From the NCBI GenBank assembly GCA_027314515.1, contig DAHVAR010000036.1, forward strand, positions 1 through 64,000: a DNA stretch of 64,000 nucleotides. Direction: 5' to 3'. Below are positions 2,452 to 48,583 of this stretch, piece by piece. The DNA is from Actinomycetota bacterium. Its GTDB lineage: Bacteria > Actinomycetota > Actinomycetes > Streptosporangiales > Streptosporangiaceae. The notes beneath the pieces were generated by a model. It was given only the letters and a program-made list of their open reading frames with translations. It did not search any database and had not been told where the DNA came from. The position numbers and the translations under genes were made by a program. The stretch's first letter is position 1. Every line of letters starts with the position of its first letter.

Positions 2452-3318
2452 TCAGATGGGGGGCCAGCCATGGTTGTTCAGCCATCCCGTGGCGGGGCCG
2501 AGCCAGCTCTGCCACCCGCCGAGCAGGATCAAGACTCCGACTGCGAGCATGAGGACGCCGCCCGCGATTTCCAGCGGGCGGGCATGCCGCTGCTGGAAGT
2601 CGACGAGGCGGCGCGCCTTGGTCAGGGCGATGGTCATGAGCGCGAACGGCACGGCGAGCCCGACGGAGTACAGCAGCAGCAGAGCCGAGCCTGTCCAGAC
2701 GGTTCCGCTCGCGGCCGAAAGCGCCAGGATGCCGCCGAGGGTGGGCCCGGTACAGGGCGTCCACGTGATCGCTATGGCGAAGCCCATGCCGAACGCGCCC
2801 AGGGGGTTATTCCGCAGCCGCTGGACATTGACGCAGGCGTCGCCGCCGGGAAGCTTGATGCGCAGCCTGGCAATCATGACGACGCCGAGCACGATGATGA
2901 AACCGCCGGCAATTCGTTCGAGTGCCGGGAGCTGACTGAGCAGCGCGCCCCCGATCGTGCTGGCGCTCGCGCCGAGCAGCACGAAGAACAGGCAGAACCC
3001 AGTGAGGAATACCACGAAACTGCGCAGGGCGCGGGCCCGTGTCACCGGCCGCGGCAGGAGTTCCGGCACGCGGGTCCCGCAGGTATCGCAGGTATCGCAG
3101 GTATCGGCTGCGGTGCCCGCTGTCTCGGTTGCGGTGGTCCCGCCGGCCTGGTTGAGCAGGACCAGCTGCCGCCGGGATCTGGCGGATGCCGGTGATGGCG
3201 CGGTGTTGAGGGCGAACGGCAGGTAGACCGGGATAAGCAGGCTGCAGCACGGAGCCGCGACAAACCCGATCACCCCAGCAGGGAAGGCCAGTAAGGCTAA
3301 GCGCAGCAACTCGGGCAT
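2452..3318 (-). CDS. CcdA/DsbD-like membrane protein
   Basis: A 288-residue membrane protein of the CcdA/DsbD transmembrane family, which passes electrons from cytoplasmic thioredoxin across the membrane. About six hydrophobic segments are visible. The paired Cys motifs are APCC (23-25) in the first segment and TPCTGP (Cys189) in the fourth, where the family normally has PCV and TPC. Odd features: an insertion of roughly 50 residues between segments 1 and 2 contains three consecutive Asp-Thr-Cys units (72-80). These could bind metal or exchange disulfides. GGAGA precedes the ATG at 3318. It heads a two-gene operon with the lipoprotein at 1949-2428. Confidence 0.8.
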   Translation of the reverse strand: MPELLRLALLAFPAGVIGFVAAPCCSLLIPVYLPFALNTAPSPASARSRRQLVLLNQAGGTTATETAGTAADTCDTCDTCGTRVPELLPRPVTRARALRSFVVFLTGFCLFFVLLGASASTIGGALLSQLPALERIAGGFIIVLGVVMIARLRIKLPGGDACVNVQRLRNNPLGAFGMGFAIAITWTPCTGPTLGGILALSAASGTVWTGSALLLLYSVGLAVPFALMTIALTKARRLVDFQQRHARPLEIAGGVLMLAVGVLILLGGWQSWLGPATGWLNNHGWPPI

Positions 3319-3449: not shown

Positions 3450-3519
3450 ATGGATTCTGACGGCCTAGCCGCGGCCGAGCCGTGACGCGTTTCTCCTGCT
3501 GACACGCCGATCGTGGTGC

Positions 3520-4253
3520 TTGATCAGCGGCACGCGATGGGGCGCCGGGCGGCGGACCATCCTGACCCACTCACCGCAGCTGCACGACAAGCAGGCCGCC
3601 GGGTTCGACGGCACCACCCTGGCCAAAGCCGGGAAGAAACTCGACGAGCTGACTGCCACCCTGGCCCGCGGCAAGACCCGAAGGTCGCGGGACAAGGTCG
3701 AGGCCGAGATCGCCGCCATCACCCGCAAGCACTGGGTCCGCCGCGTCGTCACCTGGCAGCTATCCGGCGAGCAGCCCGGGGACCTGCGCCTGTCCTGGAA
3801 CATCGACACCGGCGCCCGCGCCGCCCTCGGAGAAGAACTGTTCGGCAAGCACGTCCTGATCACCGATCACGACGACTGGCCCGTTGCCGAGGTAGTGGCC
3901 GGCTACCGGTCCCAGTCCGAGGCCGAGTTCTCCTTCGGCAGCTCAAAGACACCCGCGTCGTCTCCTTCAGCCCGATGTTCCACTGGACCGAGCACAACAT
4001 CCGCGTCCACGTCTTCACCTGCGTCCTCGCCCTGCAGGCCGCCCACCTGATGCGGCTCAAGGCCGAGCGCGCCGGGCTTGACCTGTCCGTCCGCGCACTG
4101 CTGGACCAGCTCGCCGGGATCCAGGAAACCGTTCTGCTCTACCAGGGCGAGCGCGGCCGGCCCAAAGCCCGGCGCATGCTCACCGAGCAAACACCCGACC
4201 AGCAGCAACTGCGCCAGATCTTCGGCCTGGACAGATACGCCCCGCGCAGTTAG
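3520..4253 (+). pseudogene. IS1634-type transposase, truncated and frameshifted
   Basis: Similar to the C-terminal half of IS1634/IS4-group DDE transposases. The first part reads LAKAGKKLDELTATLARGKT and later VAEVVAGYRSQSEAEFSF. The reading then moves by one base near 3935 to continue RQLKDTRVVSFSPMFHWTEH and later GIQETVLLYQGERGRPKARR, ending DRYAPRS. The shift is explained by one missing C before GGCAGCTC. The N-terminal half with the first catalytic Asp is absent. The gene is dead but still enclosed by the element's ends. Confidence 0.8.
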
Positions 4254-4485: not shown

Positions 4486-4851
4486 ATGACTACCGCCGCG
4501 CTAACCAGTCCGGGCCGGCCCAGGCCCCCGCTGGATAAGATCCCGCTGCTGAGCCCGGACAAGGCGACAGGCCTTGCCGGACTCTTCAAGATCCTTGCGA
4601 GCGAGACGCGGCTGCGGCTGCTGCATGCCCTGTACAACGCTGGCGAGATACGGGTGAGCGATCTTGCGGCGGAGGTCGGCGTGACTCAGCAGACGCTGTC
4701 GAATCAGCTGCAGCGACTGCTCGACCGGGGCATCCTGGCCACCCGGAGATCGGGTACCAGCGTCTACTACCGCATAGCTGACCCGTGCGTCCCGGTCCTG
4801 CTGGAGGCCGGTATCTGCCTCGTCGAGGGCACTCAGCCGGGCCGTCAGTAG
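4486..4851 (+). CDS. ArsR-family metal-sensing regulator (first copy)
   Basis: A 121-residue winged-helix repressor. The fold signature LFKILASETRLRLLHAL (33-49) leads to the recognition helix VTQQTLSNQLQRLLDRG and a wing ATRRSGTSVYYRI. The C-terminal helix has Cys101 and Cys111 in DPCVPVLLEAGICL. The second ArsR gene at 7130 keeps this layout, so these are probable metal or metalloid ligands. The ATG at 4486 is preceded by AGG; a TTG at 4459 behind GGAG is an alternative in the same frame. It converges on the P1B ATPase and is likely autoregulated. The inducer cannot be read from the sequence; thiol-binding ions such as As(III), Cd, Pb or Zn are candidates. Confidence 0.85.
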   Translation: MTTAALTSPGRPRPPLDKIPLLSPDKATGLAGLFKILASETRLRLLHALYNAGEIRVSDLAAEVGVTQQTLSNQLQRLLDRGILATRRSGTSVYYRIADPCVPVLLEAGICLVEGTQPGRQ

Positions 4852-4865
4852 CCGTTCCTGTCAGC

Positions 4866-7127
4866 TCAGCGCTGGGTATGGCTGGCCGCCGATTTGGACC
4901 GCGGCGCCTCGGCAGGATCGGCTGAGCAGCATTCTGCCTGGTCCGAATTAGCGCGGTCAGCTGCGATCGCCGCCCTTTCCGTGTCGTGCTGGGCGGCCGC
5001 AGCCGGGCGCCGGGAAAGGCGCAGCGCGTTCGCGATGATGAACAGGGCCGTGCCCTCATTGAGCAGCAAGCCCTCGGTCAGGGACAGCGAGCCCGTTAGC
5101 GCCGCGCTCACCAGGACTGCCACGCCCACGACTGACATCGTGATGTTCTGCCGGATGACCGTCCGCGCACGGTGCGACAGCGCGACGGCGTCCGGCAGCT
5201 TGGTCAGGTCATCGGCCATCAGCGCGACGTCGGCGGTTTCGATGGCCACATCGGTGCCGATGGCGCCCATGGCGATCCCGACGTCAGCGGTCGCGAGCGC
5301 TGGCGCGTCATTGACGCCATCTCCCACCATCGCGATTGCGCCGTACTCGGCCCGCAGATCGCTGACTGCCTTGGTCTTGTCATGCGGCAGCAGACCGGCC
5401 CGCCAGTCATCGAGGCCGGCGTGAGCCGCCACGGCGGCAGCCACACGGTTGTTGTCGCCAGTCAGCATGAGCACGCGGCGGATGCCTGCGCGCCGAAGGG
5501 CCGTGACGGTCTCCGCCGCCTCGGGGCGCACCTGATCGGCCACGGCAAGCACGGCGGCGGGCTCCCCGTCGACGCTGAGCACGACCACCGTCTTCGCGTC
5601 ATCTTCAATGCGATCGACGAGCGCGGCCGCGCCGACCGGGAGTTGCGATACCTCAGGCTTGCCGACCTGGACGAGCCGGCCCCCGACGGTGCCTTCGACG
5701 CCCCGGCCGGGCGAGACATGCAGACCCTCCGCGGCGTCCCAGCGGATCTGCCCGCGCCGGGCAGCGGACGTGATCGCCTCGGCGAGCGGGTGGCCGCTGG
5801 CGTCCTCAACGCTCGCCGCCAGGCTGAGCAAGTAGCTAGGGTCACTGTCGCCAAGTGGGATGACGTCGAGGAGTTCCGGAACTCCCCGCGTCAGGGTTCC
5901 GGTCTTGTCCATTGCAATGACGCGCAGCCCGCCGAGAGCCTCAAGGTGGGCACCGCCCTTGATCAGGACGCCGTCGCGGGCCGCCCGGGCGATCGCGGTC
6001 ACTACCGCGACCGGGACGGAGATCAGGAGCGCGCATGAGCAGGAGACGACCAGCACGACAAGTGCCCTGTAGAACCAGAGCTTCCAGTCGCCGGCGATCA
6101 GCGGCGGCACCAGTGCAACGAGGATGGCCAGGCCCAGCATGACCGGTGCGTAGATCGCGCCGAACGCGTCGGCGAATCGCTGGGAGTGGCCTTTGCGAGC
6201 CTGCGCCTCCTCGACCTCGCGGATGATCCTGGCCAGCGTGGTATCGGCATACGGTTTCGTGACCGTGATGGTCAGGGCCCCAGAGCCATTCACGGTGCCG
6301 GCGAACACGCTGCTGCCGGTGCTGACCTCGACCGGGATCGGCTCTCCGGTCACCGGGCTCTGATCCACCGCGGAAGCGCCGGAGCAGACCACGCCGTCTG
6401 TGGGCAGCCGCTCGCCCGGCCGGACCAGAATGCTGTCACCGGGGATGAGGTCCTCCACCGGGACAGCCGTGAATGCCCCGCCATCAGCTATGAGGTTCGC
6501 CGACGGAGGCGCGAGGTCCATGAGGCCGCGCAGGGAAGTGCGAACCCGCCCCGCAGCGAACTCCTCCAGGATCTGCCCTAGGGAAAACACCACGGCAAGC
6601 ACCGCGGCCTGCTCATAGAGCCCGATAGCGACGGCACCGACGGCGGCGATCAGCAGCGTAGAGATGGTGATCCGCCGGGCGAGCAGCGAGATGACGACCA
6701 ACCTCGCGGTGTAGAAGCCGCCCACTACCAGGGCCGCCAAGTAAATCGCGTTTGCAGCTACCTCCGCGCGCGTGAGGTTGCCGACCGTGAGCCCGGCTGC
6801 CAGCAGCAGCACCGCCGAGGTCAGGGCGTAGAGCTTTGGCTGCCGCCACCACCGGCTGCCCGCCCCGGCGGTGCGCAGCTGCACGGGGATGAGCCCGATT
6901 CCAGCCCGGGCGGCCTGCCGGCGCAATGAATCGACAGTGACCTCGCCGTCATGCTCCAGCACGACGGTGTTCGTTGCGGGCAGCAGCTGAACCTCGGTGA
7001 CACCGGCAACCGCTGCCAGTGCCGCGCTGACGTCCGCAGAGCATGCCGAGCAGGAACTGTCAGCAAGCCGGAACCTGGTCTGGCGGACGCCGACGGCTCC
7101 GCTGTCAACGCCCGATCCCGCTGCCAT
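4866..7127 (-). CDS. P1B-type heavy-metal-translocating ATPase
   Basis: A 753-residue metal pump. An N-terminal heavy-metal domain has CSAC (Cys26/Cys29). The actuator motif SPVTGEP (257-263), a membrane metal-site segment with SCSC (362-365), the phosphorylation site DKTGT (Asp407), SGHPLAEA and the hinge GDGVNDAP follow in order. The usual CPC of the transport site is CSC here, an unusual substitution. The C-terminus adds a CC pair in a hydrophilic tail, perhaps a second metal site. The ATG at 7127 lies 2 bp after the stop of the upstream ArsR gene, so the two are translationally coupled. It should export a soft metal and be derepressed by it. The ion specificity is open. Confidence 0.9.
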   Translation of the reverse strand: MAAGSGVDSGAVGVRQTRFRLADSSCSACSADVSAALAAVAGVTEVQLLPATNTVVLEHDGEVTVDSLRRQAARAGIGLIPVQLRTAGAGSRWWRQPKLYALTSAVLLLAAGLTVGNLTRAEVAANAIYLAALVVGGFYTARLVVISLLARRITISTLLIAAVGAVAIGLYEQAAVLAVVFSLGQILEEFAAGRVRTSLRGLMDLAPPSANLIADGGAFTAVPVEDLIPGDSILVRPGERLPTDGVVCSGASAVDQSPVTGEPIPVEVSTGSSVFAGTVNGSGALTITVTKPYADTTLARIIREVEEAQARKGHSQRFADAFGAIYAPVMLGLAILVALVPPLIAGDWKLWFYRALVVLVVSCSCALLISVPVAVVTAIARAARDGVLIKGGAHLEALGGLRVIAMDKTGTLTRGVPELLDVIPLGDSDPSYLLSLAASVEDASGHPLAEAITSAARRGQIRWDAAEGLHVSPGRGVEGTVGGRLVQVGKPEVSQLPVGAAALVDRIEDDAKTVVVLSVDGEPAAVLAVADQVRPEAAETVTALRRAGIRRVLMLTGDNNRVAAAVAAHAGLDDWRAGLLPHDKTKAVSDLRAEYGAIAMVGDGVNDAPALATADVGIAMGAIGTDVAIETADVALMADDLTKLPDAVALSHRARTVIRQNITMSVVGVAVLVSAALTGSLSLTEGLLLNEGTALFIIANALRLSRRPAAAAQHDTERAAIAADRANSDQAECCSADPAEAPRSKSAASHTQR

Positions 7128-7129
7128 CG

Positions 7130-7402
7130 CTACATACCCTCGATCCGGCAGGGCGGTTCGGCGAGGCAGACACCGTAGTTCAGCAGCGTCGCCACGCACG
7201 GATCGACGATGCGGTACATGATGGCCGCACCGACCCGCCGGTTGGCGCAGATCCGGCGGTCCACCAGGCGCTGCAGGTGGTTGGACGCAGCCTGCTGGGT
7301 CATCCCGGCCGCGAGCGCTAGTTCTCCGGCTCGCACCTCACCGCCGATGGCCATCGCATGCAGCAACCGCAGCCGTGCGTCGCTGGCGAGCACCTTGAAC
7401 AA
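7130..7402 (-). CDS. ArsR-family metal-sensing regulator (second copy)
   Basis: Winged-helix protein parallel to the ArsR at 4486: FKVLASDARLRLLHAM, MTQQAASNHLQRLVDRR, then DPCVATLLNYGVCLAEPPC with three Cys near the C-terminus. It is the first gene of a two-gene operon with the P1B ATPase and probably represses it. Start problem: the only standard start in frame is TTG at 7402, yet similarity to the first copy continues upstream (LLTAAQARDVADL) to a stop at 7535, with no ATG or GTG. The real start may be a non-standard codon such as CTG at about 7492, or the N-terminus has been damaged. Confidence 0.8.
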   Translation of the reverse strand: MFKVLASDARLRLLHAMAIGGEVRAGELALAAGMTQQAASNHLQRLVDRRICANRRVGAAIMYRIVDPCVATLLNYGVCLAEPPCRIEGM

Positions 7403-7551
7403 ATCCGCGACATCTCTGGCCTGCGCCGCGGTGAGGAGGGTCCGGTTGCTCAGCTGGGGCGCGCCCGAGCCGTACTCTGCGGCAAACGGCAGGGCGGGAA
7501 GGGATGTCTGAACGGAAATCGCGGCCTCCGGTGAGCTACGAAGCTAAGAAT

Positions 7552-7588
7552 CACACTTACATTGCACAACGGTATCGTGTAATACTAG
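7552..7588 (+). promoter_or_regulatory. Possible promoter/operator before radical SAM gene
   Basis: An AT-richer stretch in a GC-rich region between divergent genes. CTTACA and TAATAC are spaced about 18 bp apart, and a TTACA/TGTAA inverted pair frames the segment, as expected for an ArsR-controlled promoter. It could serve the radical SAM gene, with the ArsR/ATPase operon leaving in the other direction. It was judged by eye only. Confidence 0.3.
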
Positions 7589-7666
7589 CGCTGTCTTCAT
7601 TACTCTCGCAGCGCGCGGAGTGGACGCGGCAGGTTCTCAGTGCTGCGGCCTAGTTGCCGAAAGAAG

Positions 7667-8926
7667 ATGCCGATGAGCGCACCAAAGGTCGCTGTAGTGT
7701 CCGCCTTTGAGGCCAGGCTGCAGCCCATCCTGGCCGCCAGCGCTGCGGGCGCGCTCCGCAGCACGGGAGCACAGGTGACGGCCTGGGATGCCGACGTGTG
7801 CCCGAACGACTATCCCGGCGCGGACTTTGACTTGGTGCTGATCTCGATCCCGTCCTACGAGGGCATCGAGCCTGGTGCGGATCTTGTCAGCCGGTTCCGG
7901 GCAGACGGCGCGCAGCGGGTTCTGGTGTGCGGCCAGTATGCCTGGCTCAACGCCGGGGCGCTGTCCTCGATCGCCGACGGGGTCGTGGTCGATGAGCCCG
8001 AGGGCATGACGGCCCATCTGCTCGCCTTCGCCCGCGGACAAGTCACCGCCCGGGATGTCGACGGCATCTTCACCGGCGAGGGTGTTCGTACCACGCCGAA
8101 GCGCCGCGTTGAACGGAACTGGCAGCTACCAGCGCGCGACCTGTTCCCGCCGATCGCCAGCTACCCAGAGCACTGCACGAAGTTCGGCTTGCTGGGCAAC
8201 ATCGAGGCCACCCGGGGCTGCCATCACAAGTGCAGTTACTGCGCCGTGTACGCGGCCTACGGCGTAACAGCGATCCCGGTCGAGACCGACAGGGTGCTGG
8301 CTGATGCTGTTCAGCTGGCCGGTCAGGGCGCCACGCACTTCGCCTTCGTTGACGCGGAGTTCTTCAACACCCGGCGGCACGCGCTGAACGTGATGCAGGC
8401 CGTCGCCGACCGGCTCGGGCCGGTGACCTTCGAGCTCACCACCCGGTTCGACCACATCCTGGAATTCGAGGCTGAGATCAACCACATGACTGAGCTGGGC
8501 CTGCGCGTCATCACCTCGGCGCTTGAGTTTCCGTCGGAGAAGCTGCTTCAGGTGTTCGACAAGGGCATCGACGTCCCGGGCATCAAGAAGGCGATCCGCG
8601 CCGCGAAGGCTGCCGGCCTTGAGCTGCGGCCGACCTTCATCACCTTCACGCCGTGGGTCACCATGGCCGAGATCCAGTCGCTGGAGGATTTCCTCGACGA
8701 AACCGGCATAGCTGACTGGGTCGATCACACCGCCCGGCAAACCCGGCTGCTGCTGTTCAAGGGTTCGCCGCTGATGGACTCGCCGTGGCTGGACGGCGTG
8801 GAGCTGATTGACCGGGGTTTCTACTACGACTGGACCCACCCAGACCCGGCCGTAGACGAGCTGTGGGCCGAGCGGCGCCGCGCGGCAGTCGAGGCCGGAT
8901 CTACCCGTTGCTGCGTGCGCTGCTGA
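7667..8926 (+). CDS. Radical SAM protein with RCCVRC tail (ArsL-like)
   Basis: A 419-residue protein. Residues 1-130 look like a Rossmann/B12-binding-type domain, followed by a radical SAM core with CHHKCSYC (Cys185, Cys189, Cys192) for the [4Fe-4S] cluster. The chain ends precisely at RCCVRC (414-419). This resembles the RCCLKC tail of a named radical SAM family that, as I recall, includes ArsL, which transfers the aminocarboxypropyl group of SAM to arsenic in arsinothricin synthesis. The tail is therefore a candidate metalloid or extra cluster ligand. Context agrees: ArsR and metal-ATPase genes lie upstream and an acyltransferase follows. ATGs at 7667 and 7673 and a GTG at 7640 are possible starts. 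The substrate is unproven. Confidence 0.8.
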   Translation: MPMSAPKVAVVSAFEARLQPILAASAAGALRSTGAQVTAWDADVCPNDYPGADFDLVLISIPSYEGIEPGADLVSRFRADGAQRVLVCGQYAWLNAGALSSIADGVVVDEPEGMTAHLLAFARGQVTARDVDGIFTGEGVRTTPKRRVERNWQLPARDLFPPIASYPEHCTKFGLLGNIEATRGCHHKCSYCAVYAAYGVTAIPVETDRVLADAVQLAGQGATHFAFVDAEFFNTRRHALNVMQAVADRLGPVTFELTTRFDHILEFEAEINHMTELGLRVITSALEFPSEKLLQVFDKGIDVPGIKKAIRAAKAAGLELRPTFITFTPWVTMAEIQSLEDFLDETGIADWVDHTARQTRLLLFKGSPLMDSPWLDGVELIDRGFYYDWTHPDPAVDELWAERRRAAVEAGSTRCCVRC

Positions 8927-8974
8927 ACCACCGGCATCGCTTAGCTGCCGACCGGACCGGGAGGGAAGGAAACT

Positions 8975-10186
8975 GTGACAGCCGTCACCCAGCAGGTCAC
9001 GGTCGAGGATGCGGAAGCCCTGGCGGAGCTGACGTACGGGTGGGAAGTCGAGTCAGCGCCGGACGCCTCGCCGTCGAGCGGACCAGCGTGGCTGCGCGCC
9101 TACGAAGGCATTGACCCTAGGCGCCCCCCGTGCCGGTACCTGCTCACCCGTCCCGGCCACGCCCAGGTCGCGGCCGTGCCCATGCACATTGCCTACGGTC
9201 CGGTCACGCCCGACGCTGACCCGCGCAGCTACTTTGGTGCGAGCGCGGAGACGTTTGCCGAGCGCGTCTGCTGCGGGTCGCAGCAAGTCTCGCCCGCGGC
9301 GGAAGTCCTGGCGTCGCTCGACCTCGACGACATATTCCCGGCGCTGATCCTGGGGTCAATGCCCGGCTATAAGACCGAGGTTCTGCACTCCTACTGGACG
9401 CCGGAACTGGCCGGTGACCTGATCGACGCTGCGATCTCCTACGCCCAGGCGGAGGGCATCGCAACCATCCTCGCGCCGTGGGTCGCCGATCACGGCAGCG
9501 GCAGGGCACTGGGCCGCGAGCTCAGTCAGCGCGGAGCCGTCAGCGTCTTCTGGGCTGTCGAGCATTACATTCCGCTGAGGCACGAGTCCCTGCAGGCACA
9601 CCTGGCGGCGGCGAGGAGCCGGGACCGTTACCGCTACCGCTGCGACATGGCCACGGCGGAGAGGATCGGCCTGACTGTGCGCCGCATCGGCACCGACGAG
9701 CTCCGCGACCGGATGCATCGCATCGGTGTCCTTGCGGCGGCAACAAGACGCAAATACGGACAGGAAATCGACGAGACAGAGATACCAACGGTACTGACGC
9801 GCCATCTCGACCTCGGCGTGCCGCTGCTGACCGTGGGCGGATTCCAGGAAGACAAGCTGGTCGCGTGCTGCGTGTCCGTCGAAAAGGGCGACCGCGTCTA
9901 CGTCAAGCACGGCGGCTTCGACTACCACGCCCTCGGCACCCGCAGCGGCGCGCACTTCGCGGTCGTGATGTACGGCACCCTCGCCGCCGCCTTCGACAGG
10001 AAAGCCCGGCTGGTCGAGTACGGGATAGGCGCCCACCAGACCAAGATCCTGCGCGGCTGCCAGTCCCGCATGGTAACCAGCTACCTGCTCACGGATCGGC
10101 CGCACGTACGGGACATCTTCAGCGCCGCGGCCGTGCTCAACGCACCATTGCGGCTGGCGGAGCAGGCTGGCATAAGCGACGTTTAG
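8975..10186 (+). CDS. GNAT/FemAB-like acyltransferase
   Basis: A 403-residue protein resembling the peptidoglycan-biosynthesis/BioF2-like branch of the GNAT superfamily (tandem acetyltransferase-like folds). Recognisable parts are a central segment with RYRYRCDMATAERIG, a conserved VYVKHGGFDYH block (about 309-319) and the late motif VEYGIGAHQTKILRGC (about 348-363). It starts at GTG 8975 behind GGAGGGAAGG, 48 bp after the radical SAM gene, so the two are likely one operon. It probably moves an acyl or aminoacyl group onto an amine, perhaps modifying the radical SAM product or conferring self-resistance. That is inference. Confidence 0.75.
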   Translation: MTAVTQQVTVEDAEALAELTYGWEVESAPDASPSSGPAWLRAYEGIDPRRPPCRYLLTRPGHAQVAAVPMHIAYGPVTPDADPRSYFGASAETFAERVCCGSQQVSPAAEVLASLDLDDIFPALILGSMPGYKTEVLHSYWTPELAGDLIDAAISYAQAEGIATILAPWVADHGSGRALGRELSQRGAVSVFWAVEHYIPLRHESLQAHLAAARSRDRYRYRCDMATAERIGLTVRRIGTDELRDRMHRIGVLAAATRRKYGQEIDETEIPTVLTRHLDLGVPLLTVGGFQEDKLVACCVSVEKGDRVYVKHGGFDYHALGTRSGAHFAVVMYGTLAAAFDRKARLVEYGIGAHQTKILRGCQSRMVTSYLLTDRPHVRDIFSAAAVLNAPLRLAEQAGISDV

Positions 10187-10324: not shown

Positions 10325-10715
10325 GTGTCGCCCGGCGCCCATACCGCAGGGTGACGGTCCCGGTGATGCCCGGCCCGCCAGGTTGCCTTCAGCTAGGCGA
10401 CCAGGCCGCGGAAGTTCCGCGCCGACCCTGCATACCCCGCCGCCCGCGCAGTCGGCAACAGCCGTTTCGCCGGCATTCGGCCCTGACTCTTGCGCACCTT
10501 CTCGGCAACCAGGCCGCGGACGTGCTCATGGTTATGACCACGGTCCATGCGCCGCGGGGCCGCGCCGCCGGCATTATGCCGTTCCACCATCCGCTTCACG
10601 GTCTTGTGCGTCGTACCGCACAACGCGGCAGCTCCCCGGTAGCTGCCCACCTCCCGGCAGGCGGCCAGTATGTCCATCCGTTCCCTCGCATTCTTCAATA
10701 GAAGCCCAGCCCCCG
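10325..10715 (-). pseudogene. IS21-type transposase N-terminal fragment
   Basis: Reads NARERMDILAACREVGSYRG, then an HTH with CGTTHKTVKRMVERH, then GRMPAKRLLPTARAAGYAGS, as at the N-terminus of actinobacterial IS21-like transposases. An in-frame TAG at 10393-10395 interrupts it, and similarity continues beyond (WRAGHHRDRHPAVWAPGD) before ending near 10325. The catalytic core is missing. It marks the right-hand side of the metal island. Confidence 0.65.
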
Positions 10716-10910
10716 TGCGGTTGACCGGTGTCTGGCTGACACCGACACCGTCAACGCACAGGGCCCGCCGGCCCTGACACGACACGCGAGGAGCGGAGAC
10801 TTCTAACTAACTGGAAGGAGTAATTGTCAAGACCTGTGGATCAAGATCGATAAATTGTCTGCTGGGCGCTGGGATTCGTGCCGGCCTCGCTTCGTTCTGG
10901 CGGCCGGGCG

Positions 10911-31674: not shown

Positions 31675-32511
31675 CTACCAGGTGACCCGCTGCGGACCGG
31701 TGTAGATGTTCATCGACTCGCCGCGCACGAATCCCGCCAGCGTCAGGCCCGCGTCGTCGGCGAGCTCGGCGGCCAGCGATGACGGGGCGGAGACGGCCGC
31801 CAGCACCGGGATGCCGGCCAGCACAGCCTTCTGCACCAGCTCGAACGAGGCCCGCCCGCTCACCATCAGCACCGTGCGCCGCAACGGCAGCAGCCCGGCT
31901 TGCAGCGCCCAGCCGACGATCTTGTCGACGGCGTTGTGCCTGCCGACGTCCTCCCGCGCCGCCAGCAACTCGCCCGCGCTGCTGAAGAGCCCGGCCGCAT
32001 GCAGCCCGCCGGTCCGGTCGAACACCCGCTGCGCGCCGCGGAGCGCGCCGGGCAGCCCCGCCAGCACGGCCGCGGGCACCCGGAACTGGTCCTCGTCGAG
32101 CCTGTAACGGCCGGGAACGCGCAGTTCGGCGATGCTGGATTTGCCACACACACCGCAGGCGCTGCTGGTCAGGAAGTTGCGGCGCGGGCCGGACGCCAGG
32201 TGAGGCCGCAGCGCCACGTCGGCAATGTTGCCGATCGCGTCGCCGGCCTCGTGGTCGTGGCCGCACTGGCTGCCGTCGCAGATCCTGATCGACTGGATGT
32301 CCCCAGCCGAGCTGATAATGCCCTCGCTGAACAGGAAGCCGGCTGTCAGCTCGATGTCGTCGCCGGGCGTCCGCATGGTCAGGCTGATCGCCTGGCCGGC
32401 GATCCTGATGCCGAGCGGCTCCTCGGCGGCCAGCAGGTCAGCGCGCTCGCTCGCGCCGGGGCCGCCGATGCAGATCCGGGTCACCCGCCTGCGCGCCGTC
32501 CGTCCGGCCAC
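31675..32511 (-). CDS. fdhD: Formate dehydrogenase sulfurtransferase
   Basis: A 278-residue FdhD protein, which passes sulfur from a cysteine desulfurase to the bis-MGD cofactor and is needed for active formate dehydrogenase. Family segments: EEPLGIRIAGQAISLTMRTP, then ELTAGFLFSEGII, the sulfur-carrying TSSACGVCGKSS loop (CxxC), and EDVGRHNAVDKIVG. The GTG at 32511 is chosen because GGAGGAG lies just upstream; the ORF could extend to 32610 but that would run into the fdhA start. It diverges from fdhA across about 90 bp, so both probably share control. Confidence 0.95.
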   Translation of the reverse strand: MAGRTARRRVTRICIGGPGASERADLLAAEEPLGIRIAGQAISLTMRTPGDDIELTAGFLFSEGIISSAGDIQSIRICDGSQCGHDHEAGDAIGNIADVALRPHLASGPRRNFLTSSACGVCGKSSIAELRVPGRYRLDEDQFRVPAAVLAGLPGALRGAQRVFDRTGGLHAAGLFSSAGELLAAREDVGRHNAVDKIVGWALQAGLLPLRRTVLMVSGRASFELVQKAVLAGIPVLAAVSAPSSLAAELADDAGLTLAGFVRGESMNIYTGPQRVTW

Positions 32512-32601
32512 GACTCCTCCGACCTGGTTCCTGTGCTTCTGATCCCAGCCAATACCCTCCCCCCGCTTGCCCTTGCAGGCTATGTCCGTTTGGATAGGAC
32601 G

Positions 32602-35600
32602 GTGCCCCATCCACGTGGCTGGATCGCGAACTGGCCTGCCTACCGGCAGCTGACCGGACGTGACCGGCTGGGCCGGGGTGAGGCGGTCCGGTCACCGCAT
32701 ACCGAGGCGGCGGCCCCGCGCACCCAGGCCGCCGATCGCGTCGTGAGCTCCATCTGCCCGTACTGCGCGGTGGGCTGCGGCCAGCGTGTTTACGTGGCCA
32801 GCGAAGGCGGCCGGGATGCGGTCATCCAGATCGAGGGCGACCCGGACTCGCCGGTGTCGCGCGGCCGCCTGTGCCCGAAGGGCGCCGCGACCAAGCAACT
32901 GGTCACCCAGCCCGGCCGGCTGACGAAGGTGGCCTACCGGCGGCCCTACGGCACCGCCTGGGAGCAGCTGAGCCTGGACCAGGCGATGGACATGATCGCC
33001 GACCGGGTGATCGCCACCAGGAAGGACACCTGGCAGGAGCACCACGGCGGCCAGCGGGTAGCCAGGACCCTCGGCATCGCCAGCCTTGGCGGCGCGACCC
33101 TGGACAATGAGGAGAACTACCTCATCAAGAAGCTGTGGACCGCGCTCGGCGCGATCCAGATCGAGAACCAGGCGCGGATATGACACTCCGCCACCGTTCC
33201 CGGTCTGGGGACTAGCTTCGGCCGCGGCGGCGCCACCACCTTCCCGCGCGACCTCGTCAACTCGGACTGCATCGTCATCTGCGGTTCGAACATGGCCGAG
33301 TGCCATCCGGTCGCGTTCCAGTGGGTCGTGGAGGCCAAGGCCGGCGGCGCCACGGTGATCCACGTCGACCCGCGGTTTACCCGCACCAGCGCGCTGGCGG
33401 ACCTGCACGTGCCCACCAGGGCCGGCGGCGACATCGTGTTCCTCGGCGCGCTGATCAATCACGTGCTGTCCGGCGGGCACGAGTTCACCGAGTACGTCCG
33501 CGCCTACACCAACGCCGCCGACATCCTGCCAGCGGAGTTCACCGACGCGGAGGACGGCGGCGGGCTGTTCTCCGGCTACGACCCGGACACCAGGACCTAC
33601 GACAACTCCAGCTGGCAGCCGACCGGGGAGCGGGACGAGACCCTGCAGCACCCGCGGTGCGTCTTCCAGGTGCTCAAGCGGCATTTCTCCCGGTACACGC
33701 CGGATCTGGTGGAACAGGTCTGCGGGATCGGGCCAGCGGAGTTCGGCAGGGTCGCGGATGCCGTCGTCGCGGCCAGCGGGCGGGAGAAGACGACCGCCTG
33801 GGTGTATGCGGTGGGCTGGACCCAGCACAGCACCGGGGTCCAGCACATCAGGACCGCGTCGATCCTGCAGATGCTGCTCGGCAACATGGGCAGGCCCGGC
33901 GGCGGCATCCTGGCGCTCCGCGGGCACGCGAACATCCAGGGCGCGACCGATGTGCCGACCTTGTTCCACCTGCTCGGCGGCTACCTGCCGATGCCGGGGC
34001 CGGGCGAGGACATGGACACCTACCTGACCCGGATCCCGGATGGCGGTTTCTGGGGCAACAAGCGCAAGTACCTGGTCAGCATGCTGAAGGCCTGGTTCGG
34101 GGACGCGGCGACGGCAGGCAACGACTTCTGCTTCGGCTACCTGCCCAGGATCAGCGGTGATCACGGCACTTACCGCACGACGCTGGACATGATCGACGGC
34201 ACGGTCAAGGGGTTCTTCCTGCTCGGCGAGAACCCAGCCGTCGGGTCGGCGGGCGGCCGGCTGCAGCGGCTGGCGCTGGCCAACCTGGACTGGCTGGTGG
34301 TCAAGGACCTGACCATGATCGAGAGCGCCTCGTTCTGGCGGGACTCACCAGAAGTGGCCGGCGGCGAGCTGGTCACCGAGCGGATCGGGACCGAGGTATT
34401 TCTGCTGCCGGCGGCCGCGCACGTGGAGAAGGCCGGCAGCTTCACCAACACCCAGCGGCTGCTGCAATGGCACGCTAAGGCGCTGGACCCGCCCGGCGAC
34501 GCGCGCAGCGACCTGGCGTTCATCTACGACCTCGGCAACCGGATCCGCGCCCGGCTGGCTGGCTCTGATGACCCGGCCGACCGGCCGGTGCTGGACCTGA
34601 CCTGGGACTACCCGGAAGAGCCCGGCGGCGACCCGTCGGCCGAGGCGGTGCTGGCGGAGCTGAACGGATACGCGGCCGACGGGTCGCCGCTGGCCTCGTT
34701 CGCCCAGCTTGCCGACGACGGCTCGACCAGGTGCGGCAGCTGGATCCACGCGGGCTGCTTCGCCGGCGGGGTGAACCAGACGGCCCGCCGCACGCCGTGG
34801 CAGGAGCAGGACCACGTGGCCCTGGAGTGGGGCTGGGCGTGGCCGGCCAACCGGCGCATCTTGTACAACCGGGCATCGGCCGATCCGGACGGCCGGCCGT
34901 GGAGCGAGGCGAAGGCTTACGTCTGGTGGGACGAGCAGGCGCGCGAGTGGACCGGCCTGGACGTGCCGGACTTCGAGAAGGCCAAACCGCCGGACTACTT
35001 GCCGCCGCCCGGCGCCACCGGCCCGGCGGCGCTGAGCGGCCGCGATCCGTTCATCATGCAGGCAGACGGCAAGGCGGCGATCTTCGTGCCGCGCGGACTG
35101 CAGGACGGGCCGCTTCCCGCGCACTTCGAGGCCGCCGAGTCGCCGCTGCGCAACCGGGTGTACCAGCAGGACAGCAGCCCGGCGTCGATCCAGTACGCTG
35201 GCCGGCGGTCAACCCGCGACCAGGTAGCCGGGCATGACGCCACCTACCCTTACGTGGTGACGACTTACCGGCTGACCGAGCACCATACGGCCGGCGGGAT
35301 GAGCCGGACGCTGTCCAGGCTCGCCGAGCTGCAGCCCGAGCTGTTCTGCGAGGTGTCGCCTGAGCTCGCGGCGGAGCGCGGGCTGGAGAACGGCGGCTGG
35401 GCGACCATCATCACCGCGCGCGCGGCGATCGAGGCCAGGGTGCTGGTGACGCGCAGGCTGCGGCCGGTGCGGATACCTGGCGAGGGCGTCATCCACCAGG
35501 TCGGGCTGCCGTACCACTTCGGCAGCGAGGGCCTGGTGACGGGTGACTCGGTCAACGACCTGCTGCCGCTGGTACTCGACCCGAACGTATTCATCCAGGA

Positions 35601-35727
35601 GAGCAAGGTGGCTACCTGCGACATCAGAGCAGGGCGGCGGCCGACGGGAGCTGCCAGGATGCAGCTGGTGACCTCCTACCGGCACCGGGCAGGGCTGGCT
35701 GACGAAGAACCGCGGCCGGGCACATGA
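32602..35727 (+). CDS. fdhA: Formate dehydrogenase alpha subunit, selenocysteine-containing
   Basis: A 1041-residue molybdopterin (bis-MGD) oxidoreductase oxidising formate to CO2. The N-terminal [4Fe-4S] motif uses Cys52, Cys55, Cys59 and Cys91 (CPYCAVGCG, RLCPKG). Codon 194 is UGA (33181-33183), in the context NQARI-Sec-HSATVPGL, matching the Mo-ligating Sec of FDH-H and FDH-N. A SECIS hairpin follows. Downstream are SNMAECHPVAFQW, NMGRPGGGILALRGHANIQG and a C-terminal MGD-binding domain (YVVTTYRLTEHH). No twin-arginine signal is visible, so it faces the cytoplasm. GTG 32602 follows AGGAC and fits the family N-terminus. The stop overlaps the fdhB start. Automatic annotation is likely to split it at the UGA. 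Confidence 0.96.
33181..33220 (+). promoter_or_regulatory. UGA-Sec codon and SECIS hairpin in fdhA
   Basis: UGA at 33181-33183. Exactly 18 nt later lies a GGTCT apical loop (33202-33206) closed by a 6-bp stem, GTTCCC (33196-33201) with GGGGAC (33207-33212), one pair being U-G. E. coli fdhF has the same GGUCU loop at the same distance, where SelB binds. Confidence 0.93.
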
Positions 35728-36671
35728 CCAGCGACAGCGTGACCAGGGACAGCGTGACCAGCGACAGCGTGACCAGTGCCGGTGGCCCGCGCAACTCGCT
35801 GTACGGGCCGCTCGCCGACGTCGCTGCCGACGCCGGCTACCCCGGCAGTCATCCAGAACGCGTCGGGTTCTTCACCGACACCAGCGTCTGCATCGGCTGC
35901 AAGGCATGCGAGGTGGCCTGCAAGGAGTGGAACGGGCTGCCGGACCCCGAGGCGGGCGCCCTGACGCTGACCGGCATGTCCTATGACAACACCGGTGCGC
36001 TCGGCTCGAACAGCTGGCGTCATGTCGCGTTCATCGAGCAGGCTGTGCCGTCCCCGGCCGATCCGGGAGAACCGGCGCTGATATCCGCGGTCGCCGACGG
36101 TGGCACCACCCGCTGGCTGATGGCGTCCGACGTGTGCAAGCACTGCACGCACGCGGCCTGCCTCGATGTCTGCCCGACGGGCGCCCTGGTGCGCACCGAG
36201 TTCGGCACCGTGATCGTCCAGCCCGACGTGTGCAACGGCTGCGCCTACTGCGTGTCCGCGTGCCCGTTCGGCGTCATCGACCGGCGCGATGGCGACGGGC
36301 GGGCGTGGAAATGCACGATGTGCTACGACCGGCTCCGCGGCGGCCTGGAGCCGGCCTGCGCGAAGGCGTGCCCGACCGATTCCATCCAGTTCGGGCCGCT
36401 CGCCGAGCTGCGCGAGATTGCCAGCGCCCGGCTCGCCGACGTTCAGGCGTCGGGGCATCCGGAGGCCCGCCTGTACGGGGCCGATCCGGCGGACGGCATC
36501 GGCGGCGCCGGGGCGTTCTTCCTGCTGCTCGATGCGCCGGAGGTATACGGCCTGCCGCCGGACCCGGTGGTCACGACCAGGGACCTGCCGGCGATGTGGC
36601 GCTGGGCCGGCACCGCGGCCGCAGTCCTGGCGGCCGGCGTCGCGGTAGCGTTCGCGGGACGGCGCCGATGA
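35724..36671 (+). CDS. fdhB: Formate dehydrogenase iron-sulfur subunit
   Basis: A 315-residue electron-transfer subunit with four Cys clusters: CIGCKACEVACKEW (about 53-66), CKHCTHAACLDVCPTGAL, CNGCAYCVSACPFG and CTMCYDRLRGGLEPACAKACP, for four [4Fe-4S] centres. A single C-terminal transmembrane helix (about 292-311) anchors it. The start overlaps the fdhA stop (ATGA). Residues 2-18 consist of a repeated DSVTS/R unit from three 15-bp DNA repeats (35727-35771), absent from homologues I know. It carries electrons from fdhA to the NrfD-like subunit. Confidence 0.93.
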   Translation: MTSDSVTRDSVTSDSVTSAGGPRNSLYGPLADVAADAGYPGSHPERVGFFTDTSVCIGCKACEVACKEWNGLPDPEAGALTLTGMSYDNTGALGSNSWRHVAFIEQAVPSPADPGEPALISAVADGGTTRWLMASDVCKHCTHAACLDVCPTGALVRTEFGTVIVQPDVCNGCAYCVSACPFGVIDRRDGDGRAWKCTMCYDRLRGGLEPACAKACPTDSIQFGPLAELREIASARLADVQASGHPEARLYGADPADGIGGAGAFFLLLDAPEVYGLPPDPVVTTRDLPAMWRWAGTAAAVLAAGVAVAFAGRRR

Positions 36672-44985: not shown

Positions 44986-45125
44986 GTCTGCTCACCCTCC
45001 GCGTTATCGGATGCTTAAAGACTTGCACATGCACTGTGCTCTCCGGCGGGCGGCTTGGGCAAAGTGCTGGTAAATCACCCCGTAAGAGCTGTACAGCCCC
45101 TGCCGGCAAGGGCTGGCGGCCAGGT

Positions 45126-46469
45126 ATGGTCGCGCTCGTGGACGTGCGCAGGCTGACCCCGCGTACCGATGCAGTGCTGGCAGATCCGCGACTGGCCGCG
45201 GCGGAGCACCGGCTCGGCCGCGCGATCGTGCTGTCTGCCGTGCGGCGCGCGCAGGATCGCGCCCGGGCCGGCGAGATCGAGCCAGCCGCCGTGCCGGACG
45301 CCGCAGTGGAGAGCTTGCCGTCGCATGCCGCCACGCTGACGCCGGTGATCAACGCGACCGGGGTGCTGCTGCACACCAATCTCGGCCGGGCGCCGCTGTC
45401 GGCAGCTGCCAGAGACGCTCTTCAGGCCGCCGCCGGGAGCACTGACCTGGAGTTCGACCTGGCCTCGGGGCAGCGCGGGCGGCGCGGTCGCGGCATGCTC
45501 AGCGCGCTGTCGGCTGCCGTGCCCGCCGCCGAGGCCGTCCATGTCGTCAACAACAACGCCGCGGCGCTGGTGCTAGCCGCCACGGCGCTGGCGGCCGGCC
45601 GCGAAGTGGTCGTGAGCCGCGGTGAGCTGATCGAGATCGGTGACGGGTTCCGGCTGCCCGATCTGCTGGAATCAACCGGGGCACGGATCCGCGAGGTTGG
45701 CACGACCAACCGGACGACCGCTGCCGACTACGCTGCGGCGATTGGCCCGCAGACCGCCTTCGTGCTCAAGGTGCACCCGTCGAATTACCGGATCGAGGGA
45801 TTCACGGCCAGCGCTTCCATCGCGGAGCTGGCCGCGCTGAGCGTGCCGGTCATCGGCGACATCGGCTCGGGCTTGCTGACTCCGCACCCGCTGCTGCCGG
45901 CGGAGCCGGACGCCAGCAGCTGGCTCACGGCCGGGGCGGCGGTTGTCACCGCCAGCGGCGACAAGCTGCTCGGCGGCCCGCAGGCTGGCCTGCTGGCCGG
46001 CCGGGCTGACCTGATCGCCCGGCTCGCCCGGCACCCGCTGGCCAGGGCGCTGCGCGTCGACAAGCTGACGGCCGCGGCCCTGGAGGCAACGCTGACCGGG
46101 CCGCGGTCGCCGGTGGCCGAGCAGCTCGCCGCGCCGCAGGCAGAGCTAGCCGGGCGGGCTGACCTGATCGCCGACGCGCTCGCTGCCGTGGGCATCGATG
46201 CGCGCGCTCAGGGCTGCGAGGCTGCGGTTGGCGGCGGCGGCGCACCCGGAGTCAGCCTGCCGAGCGCGGCCGTCAGCTTGCCGGCCGAGCTTGCGGCAGA
46301 GCTGCGGTCTGGCCTGGCGGTGCGCCGGGGCGCGATGCCGGCCGTCGTCGGCCGGATCGAGGACGGGCGGTTGCTGCTCGATCTGCGCGCGATCAGCCCG
46401 GCTGACGACCAGCGCCTCACTGCGGCGGTACGGTCGGCCGCCGCGGCGGACCCGGCTGCGGCGGGCTGA
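45126..46469 (+). CDS. selA: L-seryl-tRNA(Sec) selenium transferase
   Basis: A 447-residue PLP enzyme converting seryl-tRNA-Sec to selenocysteyl-tRNA-Sec with selenophosphate. Landmarks: INATGVLLHTNLGRAPL, NNNAAALVLAATALA, SRGELIEIGDGFRLPDLL, VGTTNRTTAADY and the PLP lysine in SGDKLLGGPQAG (Lys280). ATG 45126 has only a weak ribosome site; a GTG at 45138 is an alternative. It is 26 bp before the SelB start (5 bp to an earlier ATG), so the two form an operon. The 140-bp upstream gap holds its promoter. Confidence 0.95.
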   Translation: MVALVDVRRLTPRTDAVLADPRLAAAEHRLGRAIVLSAVRRAQDRARAGEIEPAAVPDAAVESLPSHAATLTPVINATGVLLHTNLGRAPLSAAARDALQAAAGSTDLEFDLASGQRGRRGRGMLSALSAAVPAAEAVHVVNNNAAALVLAATALAAGREVVVSRGELIEIGDGFRLPDLLESTGARIREVGTTNRTTAADYAAAIGPQTAFVLKVHPSNYRIEGFTASASIAELAALSVPVIGDIGSGLLTPHPLLPAEPDASSWLTAGAAVVTASGDKLLGGPQAGLLAGRADLIARLARHPLARALRVDKLTAAALEATLTGPRSPVAEQLAAPQAELAGRADLIADALAAVGIDARAQGCEAAVGGGGAPGVSLPSAAVSLPAELAAELRSGLAVRRGAMPAVVGRIEDGRLLLDLRAISPADDQRLTAAVRSAAAADPAAAG

Positions 46470-46495
46470 TCGCGATGGAATCCAGGGCCCGCGCC

Positions 46496-48583
46496 ATGCA
46501 TGTCGTCGTCACTGCCGGACACGTCGACCACGGAAAGTCTGCGCTGATCCGCGCCCTCACCGGGATGGAGCCGGATCGGTGGGCCGAGGAACAGCGCCGC
46601 GGCATGACGATCGACCTCGGTTTCGGCTGGCTGACGCTGCCCTCCGGCGACCGGCTGGCTTTCGTCGACGTCCCCGGCCACGAGCGGTTCGTGACCAACA
46701 TGCTGGCTGGCGCGGGCCCGGTGCCGGCCGTGATGTTCGTGGTGGCGGCCGACGAGGGCTGGATGCCGCAGTCCGCCGAGCATCTGGCCGTGGTGGCCGC
46801 GCTCGGCATCAGGCGCGGCGTGCTAGCCGTCACCAAGAGCGATCTGGCCGACCCGGGGCCTGCGATCAGCCAGGCGACCGCTCAGATCGCGCAGACGGCC
46901 CTCGGCAAGCTGCCGGCGATCGCGGTCAGCTCGGTAACCGGGGCAGGACTTGCCGAACTGGCCGAGGCGCTGTGCGAGCTGTGCCGCAGCCTGCCCGAGC
47001 CCGATCCCGGCGCGCCGGTGCGGATCTGGATCGACCGCGTCTTCAGCATGACCGGCAGCGGGACGGTCGTGACTGGCACCCTTCCGGCCGGCTCCGTGCA
47101 CCGGGGTGACGAGCTGGTGATCACGCCGTCGATGCGCCCAGTACGGGTGCGAGACCTGCAGTCACTCGGGGAGACGGCACAGGCCGCCGAGGGAGTGGCG
47201 CGCGTGGCGCTCAACTTGCGCGGCATCGGGCGGGACTCGCTGCATCGCGGCATGGCGCTCGTGCAGGCCGGCCGCTGGACCCTTACCGACCTGATCGACG
47301 TCCGGCTGAGCGTGCCGGCTGGCAGTTCCGTGCCGGCTGGCAGTTCCGTGCCGCCGGGCAGCCCCGTGCCGCCGGGCAGCCCGGTGCCGCCGGGCAGCCC
47401 CGCCGGGCCTGGCCAGCTGGCGAGATCGGTGGCCGTGCACGTAGGCTCCGCCCGCGTCGTTGCCCGGGTGCGGCCGCTTGGCGCGGGATTGGCCAGGCTC
47501 AGCCTGGCGGACGCATTGCCACTGCACGTCGGCGACCGGATCCTGCTGCGCGATCCTGGCAGTCGCCGTACCGGCTCGTTTCCGGCGGTGGCCGGCGCGG
47601 TCGTCCTCGATGTGGCGCCGCCGTCGCTCGGTCGCCGTGGTGCCGCCGCCGCTGCGGCGCGGATGCTGTCGGGCTGGCCCGACCGGCCGGGAGCCGCCGA
47701 GTTGCTCGCCCGGCACGGGATCATGCGGGCCAGCACGCTGCTTGCCATGGGCGTGTCGGATCACCCGGTGCCGGTGGCGGGCGAGTGGCTTGCCGATCCC
47801 GGCCACTGGCGTGCACTCGGTCACCAGCTCGGCGAAGTGCTCGCGAACCATGCGGCCGCCGAGCCGCTGGCCGCGGGAATGCCGGTCGACGCCGCCAGGG
47901 CAGCGCTGGAACTGCCCGACCGAAAGCTGGTGCTCGCGCTTGCCAAGCCGCCGTTCCGGGTCACTGGCGGAGCCCTGCACATAGGACGGCCGGCCGGCCA
48001 GGATGCCGGCCCGGAACTCCCCGAGGCGGTTCGCGCGGCGGTGCGGGTGCTTCGCGCCGACCTGGCCGCGGCCCCGTTCCTGTCACCGGACGCGGACCGG
48101 CTGCGCAAGCTCGGGCTCGACGCGCGCAGCATCGCCGCCGCAGTGCGGGCCGGGGAGCTGATGCGCGTCAGCGACCAGGTCGTGCTCGCCCCTGGCGCTG
48201 ACGTGCTCGCCAGCGAGCTGCTGGCCCGGCTGCCGCAGCCGTTCACGGCGGCAGAGGCCAGGCAGGCGCTCGATAGCACCAGGCGCACCGCCATCCCGCT
48301 GCTGGAGTACCTGGACTCGGCGGGAATCACGCAGCGACTGCCAGACGACCGGCGAGTGCTGGTCAGCAGGCCCGCGCATGCCGGAGATCCGGCCGTCAGC
48401 GGTGCGGCTGCCAGCCCGGTCGCCGCCAGCCTGACCGGCGGAGCTGGCACCGGCGCGAGTCGCACCAGCATTACCACGGCAGACCTGACGGTCAGCGGCG
48501 GGCACGGCCCCAGCAGGCCCGCGGCCGGGGTGGCCGCCGGCCGGACAGACACCGGCACGGCCGGTTCCGCGTCCGGCCCGTGA
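46496..48583 (+). CDS. selB: Selenocysteine-specific elongation factor
   Basis: A 695-residue GTPase that carries Sec-tRNA to UGA codons marked by a SECIS hairpin. The G domain has TAGHVDHGKS (P loop), RGMTIDLGF (switch I), DVPGHE and TKSDL. Beta-barrel domains follow, and the C-terminal half holds the winged-helix repeats that bind the SECIS (PFLSPDADRLRKLGLDARSI and PFTAAEARQALDSTRRTAIP). Odd features: residues 273-302 are five copies of VPxGSx, and about 70 Ala/Gly/Thr-rich residues are added at the C-terminus. The ATG at 46475 is an alternative start; homologues begin at MHVVVTAGHVDHGKS. Confidence 0.95.
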   Translation: MHVVVTAGHVDHGKSALIRALTGMEPDRWAEEQRRGMTIDLGFGWLTLPSGDRLAFVDVPGHERFVTNMLAGAGPVPAVMFVVAADEGWMPQSAEHLAVVAALGIRRGVLAVTKSDLADPGPAISQATAQIAQTALGKLPAIAVSSVTGAGLAELAEALCELCRSLPEPDPGAPVRIWIDRVFSMTGSGTVVTGTLPAGSVHRGDELVITPSMRPVRVRDLQSLGETAQAAEGVARVALNLRGIGRDSLHRGMALVQAGRWTLTDLIDVRLSVPAGSSVPAGSSVPPGSPVPPGSPVPPGSPAGPGQLARSVAVHVGSARVVARVRPLGAGLARLSLADALPLHVGDRILLRDPGSRRTGSFPAVAGAVVLDVAPPSLGRRGAAAAAARMLSGWPDRPGAAELLARHGIMRASTLLAMGVSDHPVPVAGEWLADPGHWRALGHQLGEVLANHAAAEPLAAGMPVDAARAALELPDRKLVLALAKPPFRVTGGALHIGRPAGQDAGPELPEAVRAAVRVLRADLAAAPFLSPDADRLRKLGLDARSIAAAVRAGELMRVSDQVVLAPGADVLASELLARLPQPFTAAEARQALDSTRRTAIPLLEYLDSAGITQRLPDDRRVLVSRPAHAGDPAVSGAAASPVAASLTGGAGTGASRTSITTADLTVSGGHGPSRPAAGVAAGRTDTGTAGSASGP
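47312..47401 (+). repeat. 18-bp tandem repeat inside selB
   Basis: Five in-frame 18-bp units starting GTGCCGGCTGGC or GTGCCGCCGGGC, encoding VPAGSS twice and VPPGSP three times. The change from AGSS to PGSP between units 2 and 3 shows stepwise duplication. It lies in the barrel region of SelB, in a loop. Confidence 0.95.

Follow-up and report, generated by a model that had tools for sequence, protein, structure and literature searches.

An ArsL-type radical SAM enzyme and a FemAB-like acyltransferase probably form an arseno-amino-acid unit in a soil-type actinobacterium

The 64,000-nucleotide stretch analyzed here (the window) lies at the beginning of a contig in a 5.86-Mb actinobacterial draft genome. 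It carries an arsL-type gene for a radical S-adenosylmethionine (SAM) protein and, directly behind it, a gene for a FemAB-like acyltransferase (Table 1). We regard the pair as a unit of this soil-type actinobacterium whose probable task is to attach arsenic to an amino acid and afterward cap the product. The two genes are separated by 48 bp that hold a ribosome site, GGGAGGGAAGGA, an arrangement described in the original prediction and borne out here. The arsL reading frame is open from a GTG at 7640 and has ATGs at 7667 and 7673; because the orthologue in the metagenome-assembled genome (MAG) UBA9676 begins at the residue matching 7673, this is the likely start, with 7667 also possible.

Table 1. 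Features at and around the arsL-acyltransferase pair, in window coordinates
Feature	Position	Strand	Evidence
ArsL-type radical SAM protein, 417 aa	7673..8926	+	GCHHKCSYC core, C-terminal RCCVRC; NF040542 412 bits, tree
Codons of RCCVRC tail, presumed As(III) ligands	8906..8923	+	sequence; R-C-C-x-x-C end invariant in 20/20 ArsL-side proteins
FemAB_like/GNAT acyltransferase, 403 aa	8975..10186	+	PF04339 and PF13480; Cys99-Cys100
Codons for acyltransferase Cys99-Cys100	9269..9274	+	alignment and column counts
ArsR/SmtB-type regulator 2 (ArsR2), divergent from arsL	7130..7528	-	NF033788 65 bits, cut-off 55
P1B-type metal ATPase with HMA domain, CSC replacing CPC, Cys-Cys in C-terminal tail	4866..7199	-	TIGR01525 565 bits, over cut-off
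ArsR/SmtB-type regulator 1 (ArsR1)	4486..4851	+	NF033788 81 bits
DsbD_TM/CcdA-like membrane protein with CC pair	2455..3318	-	PF02683 1e-9; syntenic in UBA9676 L012 and L013
Operator/promoter-like block (ATTGCACAACGGTATCGTGTAATACTAGCG) between arsR2 and arsL	7561..7590	.	conserved with UBA9676

The radical SAM protein has the CX3CX2C motif as CHHKCSYC (residues 183-190) and ends exactly at RCCVRC, as first noticed from the sequence, and Pfam Radical_SAM matches it at 2e-11. The whole genome contains a single match to a degenerate DNA pattern for CHHKC[ST]YC, and a search across the source genome found no second ArsL. The top curated family is ArsL (NF040542; cut-off 450 bits), with 412 bits over model positions 2-423 of 423, and the runner-up is CUAEP (NF040546; threshold 500) with 236 bits. 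In a maximum-likelihood tree of 38 proteins, 20 from the ArsL side and 18 CUAEP, the two sides split at 100/100, with the caveat that the tool flags long branches between groups. The window protein, its UBA9676 orthologue (87% identity) and eight Streptomyces proteins (48-49%) form a clade (100/100) that is sister to the annotated ArsL of Pseudomonas, Alicyclobacillus, Priestia and Pantoea and not nested inside the RCCLKC set. The suggested kinship with ArsL therefore stands, the protein lying next to ArsL in the tree and not far off, and so does the Cys tail in homologues, since R-C-C-[LV]-[KR]-C terminates all 20 ArsL-side proteins. The window's own tail fits RCC-x-[KR]-C, the family forms being RCCLKC and RCCVKC, and does not match RCCLKC exactly. 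By sequence, the protein belongs on the ArsL side of the family. Membership in CUAEP/CCAEP was rejected on the lower score, the missing CUAEP/CCAEP tail and the separate clade, and a plain radical SAM methyltransferase on score order. The proposed B12-binding-like N-terminal domain survives only at the level of fold, where a low-confidence predicted structure (predicted local distance difference test, pLDDT, 56; overall fold only) resembles the B12-type radical SAM fold of AprD4, TsrM, MgmA and OxsB; Pfam B12-binding gave no match to the protein.

The pairing of the two genes recurs well beyond the window. In UBA9676 the acyltransferase (68% identical) also stands directly after arsL, and one locus there (L012) shares with the window the order DsbD-like gene, ArsR1, ATPase, ArsR2, arsL, acyltransferase, with ArsR1 and the DsbD_TM gene again adjoining the pair. 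A second ArsR-arsL-acyltransferase copy in the same MAG (L013, DPMS01000174.1) has its arsL broken into three frames, either as a pseudogene or through an assembly error; the ArsR1 copy, 70-74% identical, adjoins the pair in both loci. When the search was reversed, 10 of 393 Streptomyces genomes proved to have arsL, each time with the acyltransferase directly behind it. Among 296 Streptomyces genomes the acyltransferase itself has 17 close and eight remote relatives. All 17 close ones lie in arsenic clusters, and no arsenic gene was near the four remote homologues fetched. In eight of the 17, arsL immediately precedes the acyltransferase gene, and a CobW-type GTPase and ArsM come next, in clusters that all contain ArsR, ArsC and an ATP-grasp ligase and mostly Acr3 and PstS. 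The other nine, together with a plasmid copy, sit in clusters with an AroA-like BsnM, a phosphomutase-like BsnN, ArsR, an ArsP_1 permease and a class I aminotransferase. The acyltransferase, originally put forward as a partner of the radical SAM enzyme, is thus a conserved one, and in Streptomyces it is found in two arsenic pathways that are unrelated to each other. Since the Cys tail is universal on the ArsL side and the gene pair is kept across actinobacterial families, the locus goes beyond chance.

Other genes recur in these neighborhoods. The CobW-type GTPase of the eight Streptomyces ArsL clusters (L076-L083) has a counterpart in the RCCLKC clusters of Alicyclobacillus, Priestia and Pantoea (L041, L043, L044). 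ATP-grasp amino-acid-ligase-like genes recur in the same three and in L082 (18630-19889), the Streptomyces one resembling BacD/DdaF, and this recurrence suggests that those ArsL clusters, too, make arsinothricin peptides. A BsnMN cluster without the acyltransferase (L136, G748:C1:6203300-6223200) has three ATP-grasp ligase-like open reading frames (ORFs) reminiscent of phosphonoalamide ligases and is a possible arsonopeptide cluster.

The acyltransferase (ACYLTRANSFERASE) is a member of PF04339/PF13480, scoring 29.8 bits against PF04339 FemAB_like, over the cut-off of 27; both domains were found in 11/11 family members, PF04339 at E values up to 1. In its tree, 20 arsenic-linked acyltransferases form a single clade (100/99), in which the window and UBA9676 proteins branch first and the bsn-linked members are one derived group. 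If the rooting is right, this branching order suggests that the enzyme started out as a partner of ArsL. Cys99-Cys100 is invariant in all 20, and none of the eight remote homologues has a Cys-Cys pair anywhere. DPR-x-[YL]-x-G, K-x-x-GFDY, RSG and K-x-x-RG are likewise invariant (20/20) and all present in the window protein. Clade members from Streptomyces have another CC at the C-terminus, and those linked to bsn carry five to seven more CC pairs, mostly within an N-terminal extension. Neither the sequence nor the family profile had a meaningful match among the PDB chains searched, PF02388 (FemABX) was absent from 13 near genomes, and no relatives were found in viral contigs. Cys-Cys pairs number five in 2,321 aa at the locus and eight in 14,112 aa of the other window proteins, five of these eight in one doubtful ORF, and we judge the enrichment too small to rely on.

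Which substrate the two pathways share can be approached through their gene content. BsnN occurs in 17 of 247 Streptomyces genomes; seven of these have the acyltransferase and all seven a class I aminotransferase, and the remaining 10 have neither (Fisher p 5e-5, uncorrected for relatedness). BsnMN produce arsonopyruvate (PMC12159101), and in phosphonate metabolism an aspartate-aminotransferase-like step turns phosphonopyruvate into phosphonoalanine (PMC11867202). By analogy, the bsn clusters with the acyltransferase would make arsonoalanine. With the acyltransferase and aminotransferase paired in this way, an arseno-amino acid is the probable substrate in common. On the ArsL side, the product hydroxyarsinothricin is itself an amino acid; as an arsenic-bearing alpha-amino acid is common to both pathways, N-acylation or N-aminoacylation would be the simplest role for the enzyme. 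Phosphonopeptides are closed by ATP-grasp ligases, non-ribosomal peptide synthetases (NRPS) or tRNA-dependent GNAT enzymes (PMC11867202, PMC12945691).

ArsL of Burkholderia moves the 3-amino-3-carboxypropyl group of SAM to As(III), and the role of ArsL orthologues outside the arsQML group has been called unclear (PMC8552651). By analogy, we infer the same transfer for the window enzyme. We propose a model where As(III) would release the ArsR proteins from the divergent promoter. The RCCVRC tail of the ArsL-type enzyme would then hold As(III) while the [4Fe-4S] cluster cleaves SAM noncanonically, putting 3-amino-3-carboxypropyl on arsenic to give a hydroxyarsinothricin-like amino acid, if the chemistry follows that of the family. 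The acyltransferase, its invariant Cys-Cys pair keeping the arsenical in reach, would acylate or aminoacylate the arseno-amino acid at its amino group, with aminoacyl-tRNA or acyl-coenzyme A as candidate donor; the substrate class in this step is deduced from gene neighborhoods in the two pathway types. The capped compound could act as a Trojan-horse antibiotic resembling an arsenopeptide or else be a self-protected form for storage, and an ArsM homologue, whose gene lies elsewhere in the genome, may also add methyl groups. That the pair is an arseno-amino-acid unit, in which ArsL produces an amino acid resembling hydroxyarsinothricin, to be capped at its amino group by the acyltransferase, is the account we favor and consider reasonably likely. 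More tentative, and in our estimate somewhat short of even, is the broader idea that one acyltransferase family with an arsenic-gripping Cys-Cys makes arsenopeptides or N-acyl arseno-amino acids and is shared by the radical SAM ArsL route and the arsonopyruvate/arsonoalanine transamination route.

Several observations count against this account. The radical SAM protein falls 38 bits below the curated ArsL cut-off and shares only about 35% identity with ArsL of the arsQLM clusters, and arsM, Acr3 or ArsC are not present in the window. The acyltransferase profile is not significant against Streptomyces FemX proteins (E 0.14, colinear over 281 columns, stopping before Lys357), and an AlphaFold model of the acyltransferase from two sequences reached a pLDDT of 32 and was set aside. 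The bsn-linked members group in a single clade, so only a small number of independent events may underlie the association with the aminotransferase.

It is also conceivable, though unlikely, that the acyltransferase serves detoxification or self-resistance, as an N-acetyltransferase in the place of ArsN1 that blocks the amino group with acetyl to spare the producer from poisoning and has no part in the final product. In its favor, clusters of the arsinothricin type have annotated resistance acetyltransferases of the ArsN1 type, the window yielded no relative of ArsN1, and a GNAT-type domain is present in the acyltransferase. However, one Streptomyces cluster (L077) has the acyltransferase and an ArsN1-like gene together, the acyltransferase gene lies directly behind arsL and not in the resistance part, and the FemAB_like enzyme is ~400 aa long compared to about 165-180 aa for ArsN1.

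The genes upstream of arsL bear on which metal is involved. An ArsR gene and a metal ATPase on the other strand were correctly predicted, and the two overlap; the second ArsR gene and the DsbD_TM gene had been overlooked. The proposed use of the ArsR and ATPase genes in sensing and export has only the synteny with UBA9676 L012 in its favor, and the P1B ATPase is absent from L013 and from the Streptomyces ArsL clusters. The ATPase has CSC in place of the usual CPC in both the window and UBA9676, with one Cys-Cys pair in the tail of the former and three in the latter. In Thermus, a P1B ATPase under an ArsR/SmtB regulator gives arsenic as well as cadmium resistance (PMC5960188), and on this precedent a role in arsenic efflux is possible. 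Between arsR2 and arsL, the best stretch of the 30-bp intergenic block shares 20/24 bases with UBA9676, compared to 17 in the best of 200 shuffles, and may be an operator. The radical SAM enzyme might instead be an ArsL relative with other chemistry or another substrate, such as a different SAM fragment, antimony or another soft metal, with the ATPase and ArsR pointing to Cd/Zn/Pb. The score under the equivalog cut-off, the Zn/Cd/Pb types among the best ATPase matches and the lack of inorganic arsenic genes in the window fit such an enzyme. We nevertheless consider it improbable, since the closest sisters lie in clear arsenic clusters and the one scored against NF040542 reaches 489 bits, the acyltransferase clade is arsenic-linked throughout, and the Thermus precedent covers arsenic. 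Least probable by far is a decaying remnant of a pathway being lost, as transposase-like remnants on both sides (3513-4253 and 10393-10785, by eye; Pfam HTH_23 in the second only), the lack of an export or methylation gene and the fragmented L013 copy might suggest, because both window genes are intact, are 87% and 68% identical to their UBA9676 counterparts with catalytic and tail cysteines kept, and lie behind a conserved operator-like block.

Elsewhere in the window, a truncated AMP-binding (NRPS adenylation-like) fragment lies at the contig start (528-1574). By eye, a formate-dehydrogenase-like set split over two ORFs accompanies SelA-/SelB-like genes (31936-36668 and 45036-48580); the split may be a selenocysteine UGA.

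To our knowledge, few bacterial organoarsenic natural products are known. The presence of this acyltransferase in both kinds of pathway points to a little-explored family of them, predicted to include arsonoalanine- and hydroxyarsinothricin-based conjugates, and a gene that marks both kinds of arseno-amino-acid pathway would be a direct handle for genome mining.

Compared with the arsinothricin clusters, arsQML of Burkholderia gladioli GSRB05 (PMC8552651) and arsQLM of Pseudomonas amygdali (L042), the window has in common an ArsL-type radical SAM protein with CX3CX2C, an RCC..C tail and a nearby ArsR. It differs, as originally proposed, in lacking adjacent arsM and arsQ, and also ArsN1, in the acyltransferase directly behind arsL, and in ending in RCCVRC, not RCCLKC. 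No arsM or arsQ relatives were found in the 64 kb; the absence of arsM had been claimed and is true of the window, but the genome has an ArsM homologue (G000:C252) and an Acr3 homologue elsewhere. By sequence, the locus resembles an ArsL unit yet misses both the curated cut-off and the arsQ/arsM neighbors that define the published cluster. The next-nearest family, the CUAEP/CCAEP-tail radical SAM (seleno)proteins (NF040546), has the same domain order and differs in tail and clade. Comparable, too, are the Streptomyces ArsL clusters (L076-L083, L143, L144), where a sister ArsL ending in RCCVKC is followed by the same acyltransferase; unlike the window, they have a CobW-type GTPase, ArsM, ArsC, mostly Acr3 and an ATP-grasp ligase, and their acyltransferase ends in CC. 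We found no description of them in the literature searched. The same holds for the acyltransferase partner, with two key bsn papers outside that literature, so an earlier mention of acyltransferase-bearing bsn clusters is possible.

The bisenarsan-type (bsn) clusters of Streptomyces (BsnM/BsnN; PMC12159101) include a subset (L048, L049, L084-L091) with the same acyltransferase family. They differ in forming the C-As bond through enzymes like 5-enolpyruvylshikimate-3-phosphate synthase and phosphomutase, without a radical SAM protein, and in their aminotransferase and ArsP_1 permease; BsnM and BsnN have no match in the window. What is surprising and new is that two C-As pathways with no relation to each other share this acyltransferase. 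A GNAT/FemAB-type enzyme behind a pathway to a group-15 amino-acid analogue is also seen in the tRNA-dependent GNAT/FemX-like ligases of phosphonopeptides (DhpH-C, DhpK; PMC12945691), whereas the window differs in dealing with arsenic instead of phosphorus and in its non-significant FemX homology. The occurrence of the acyltransferase gene in both kinds of arsenic pathway suggests that arsenic chemistry parallels the phosphonate peptide antibiotics, of which the compounds made by a shared Cys-Cys acyltransferase family would, if that broader idea is true, be an arsenic counterpart.
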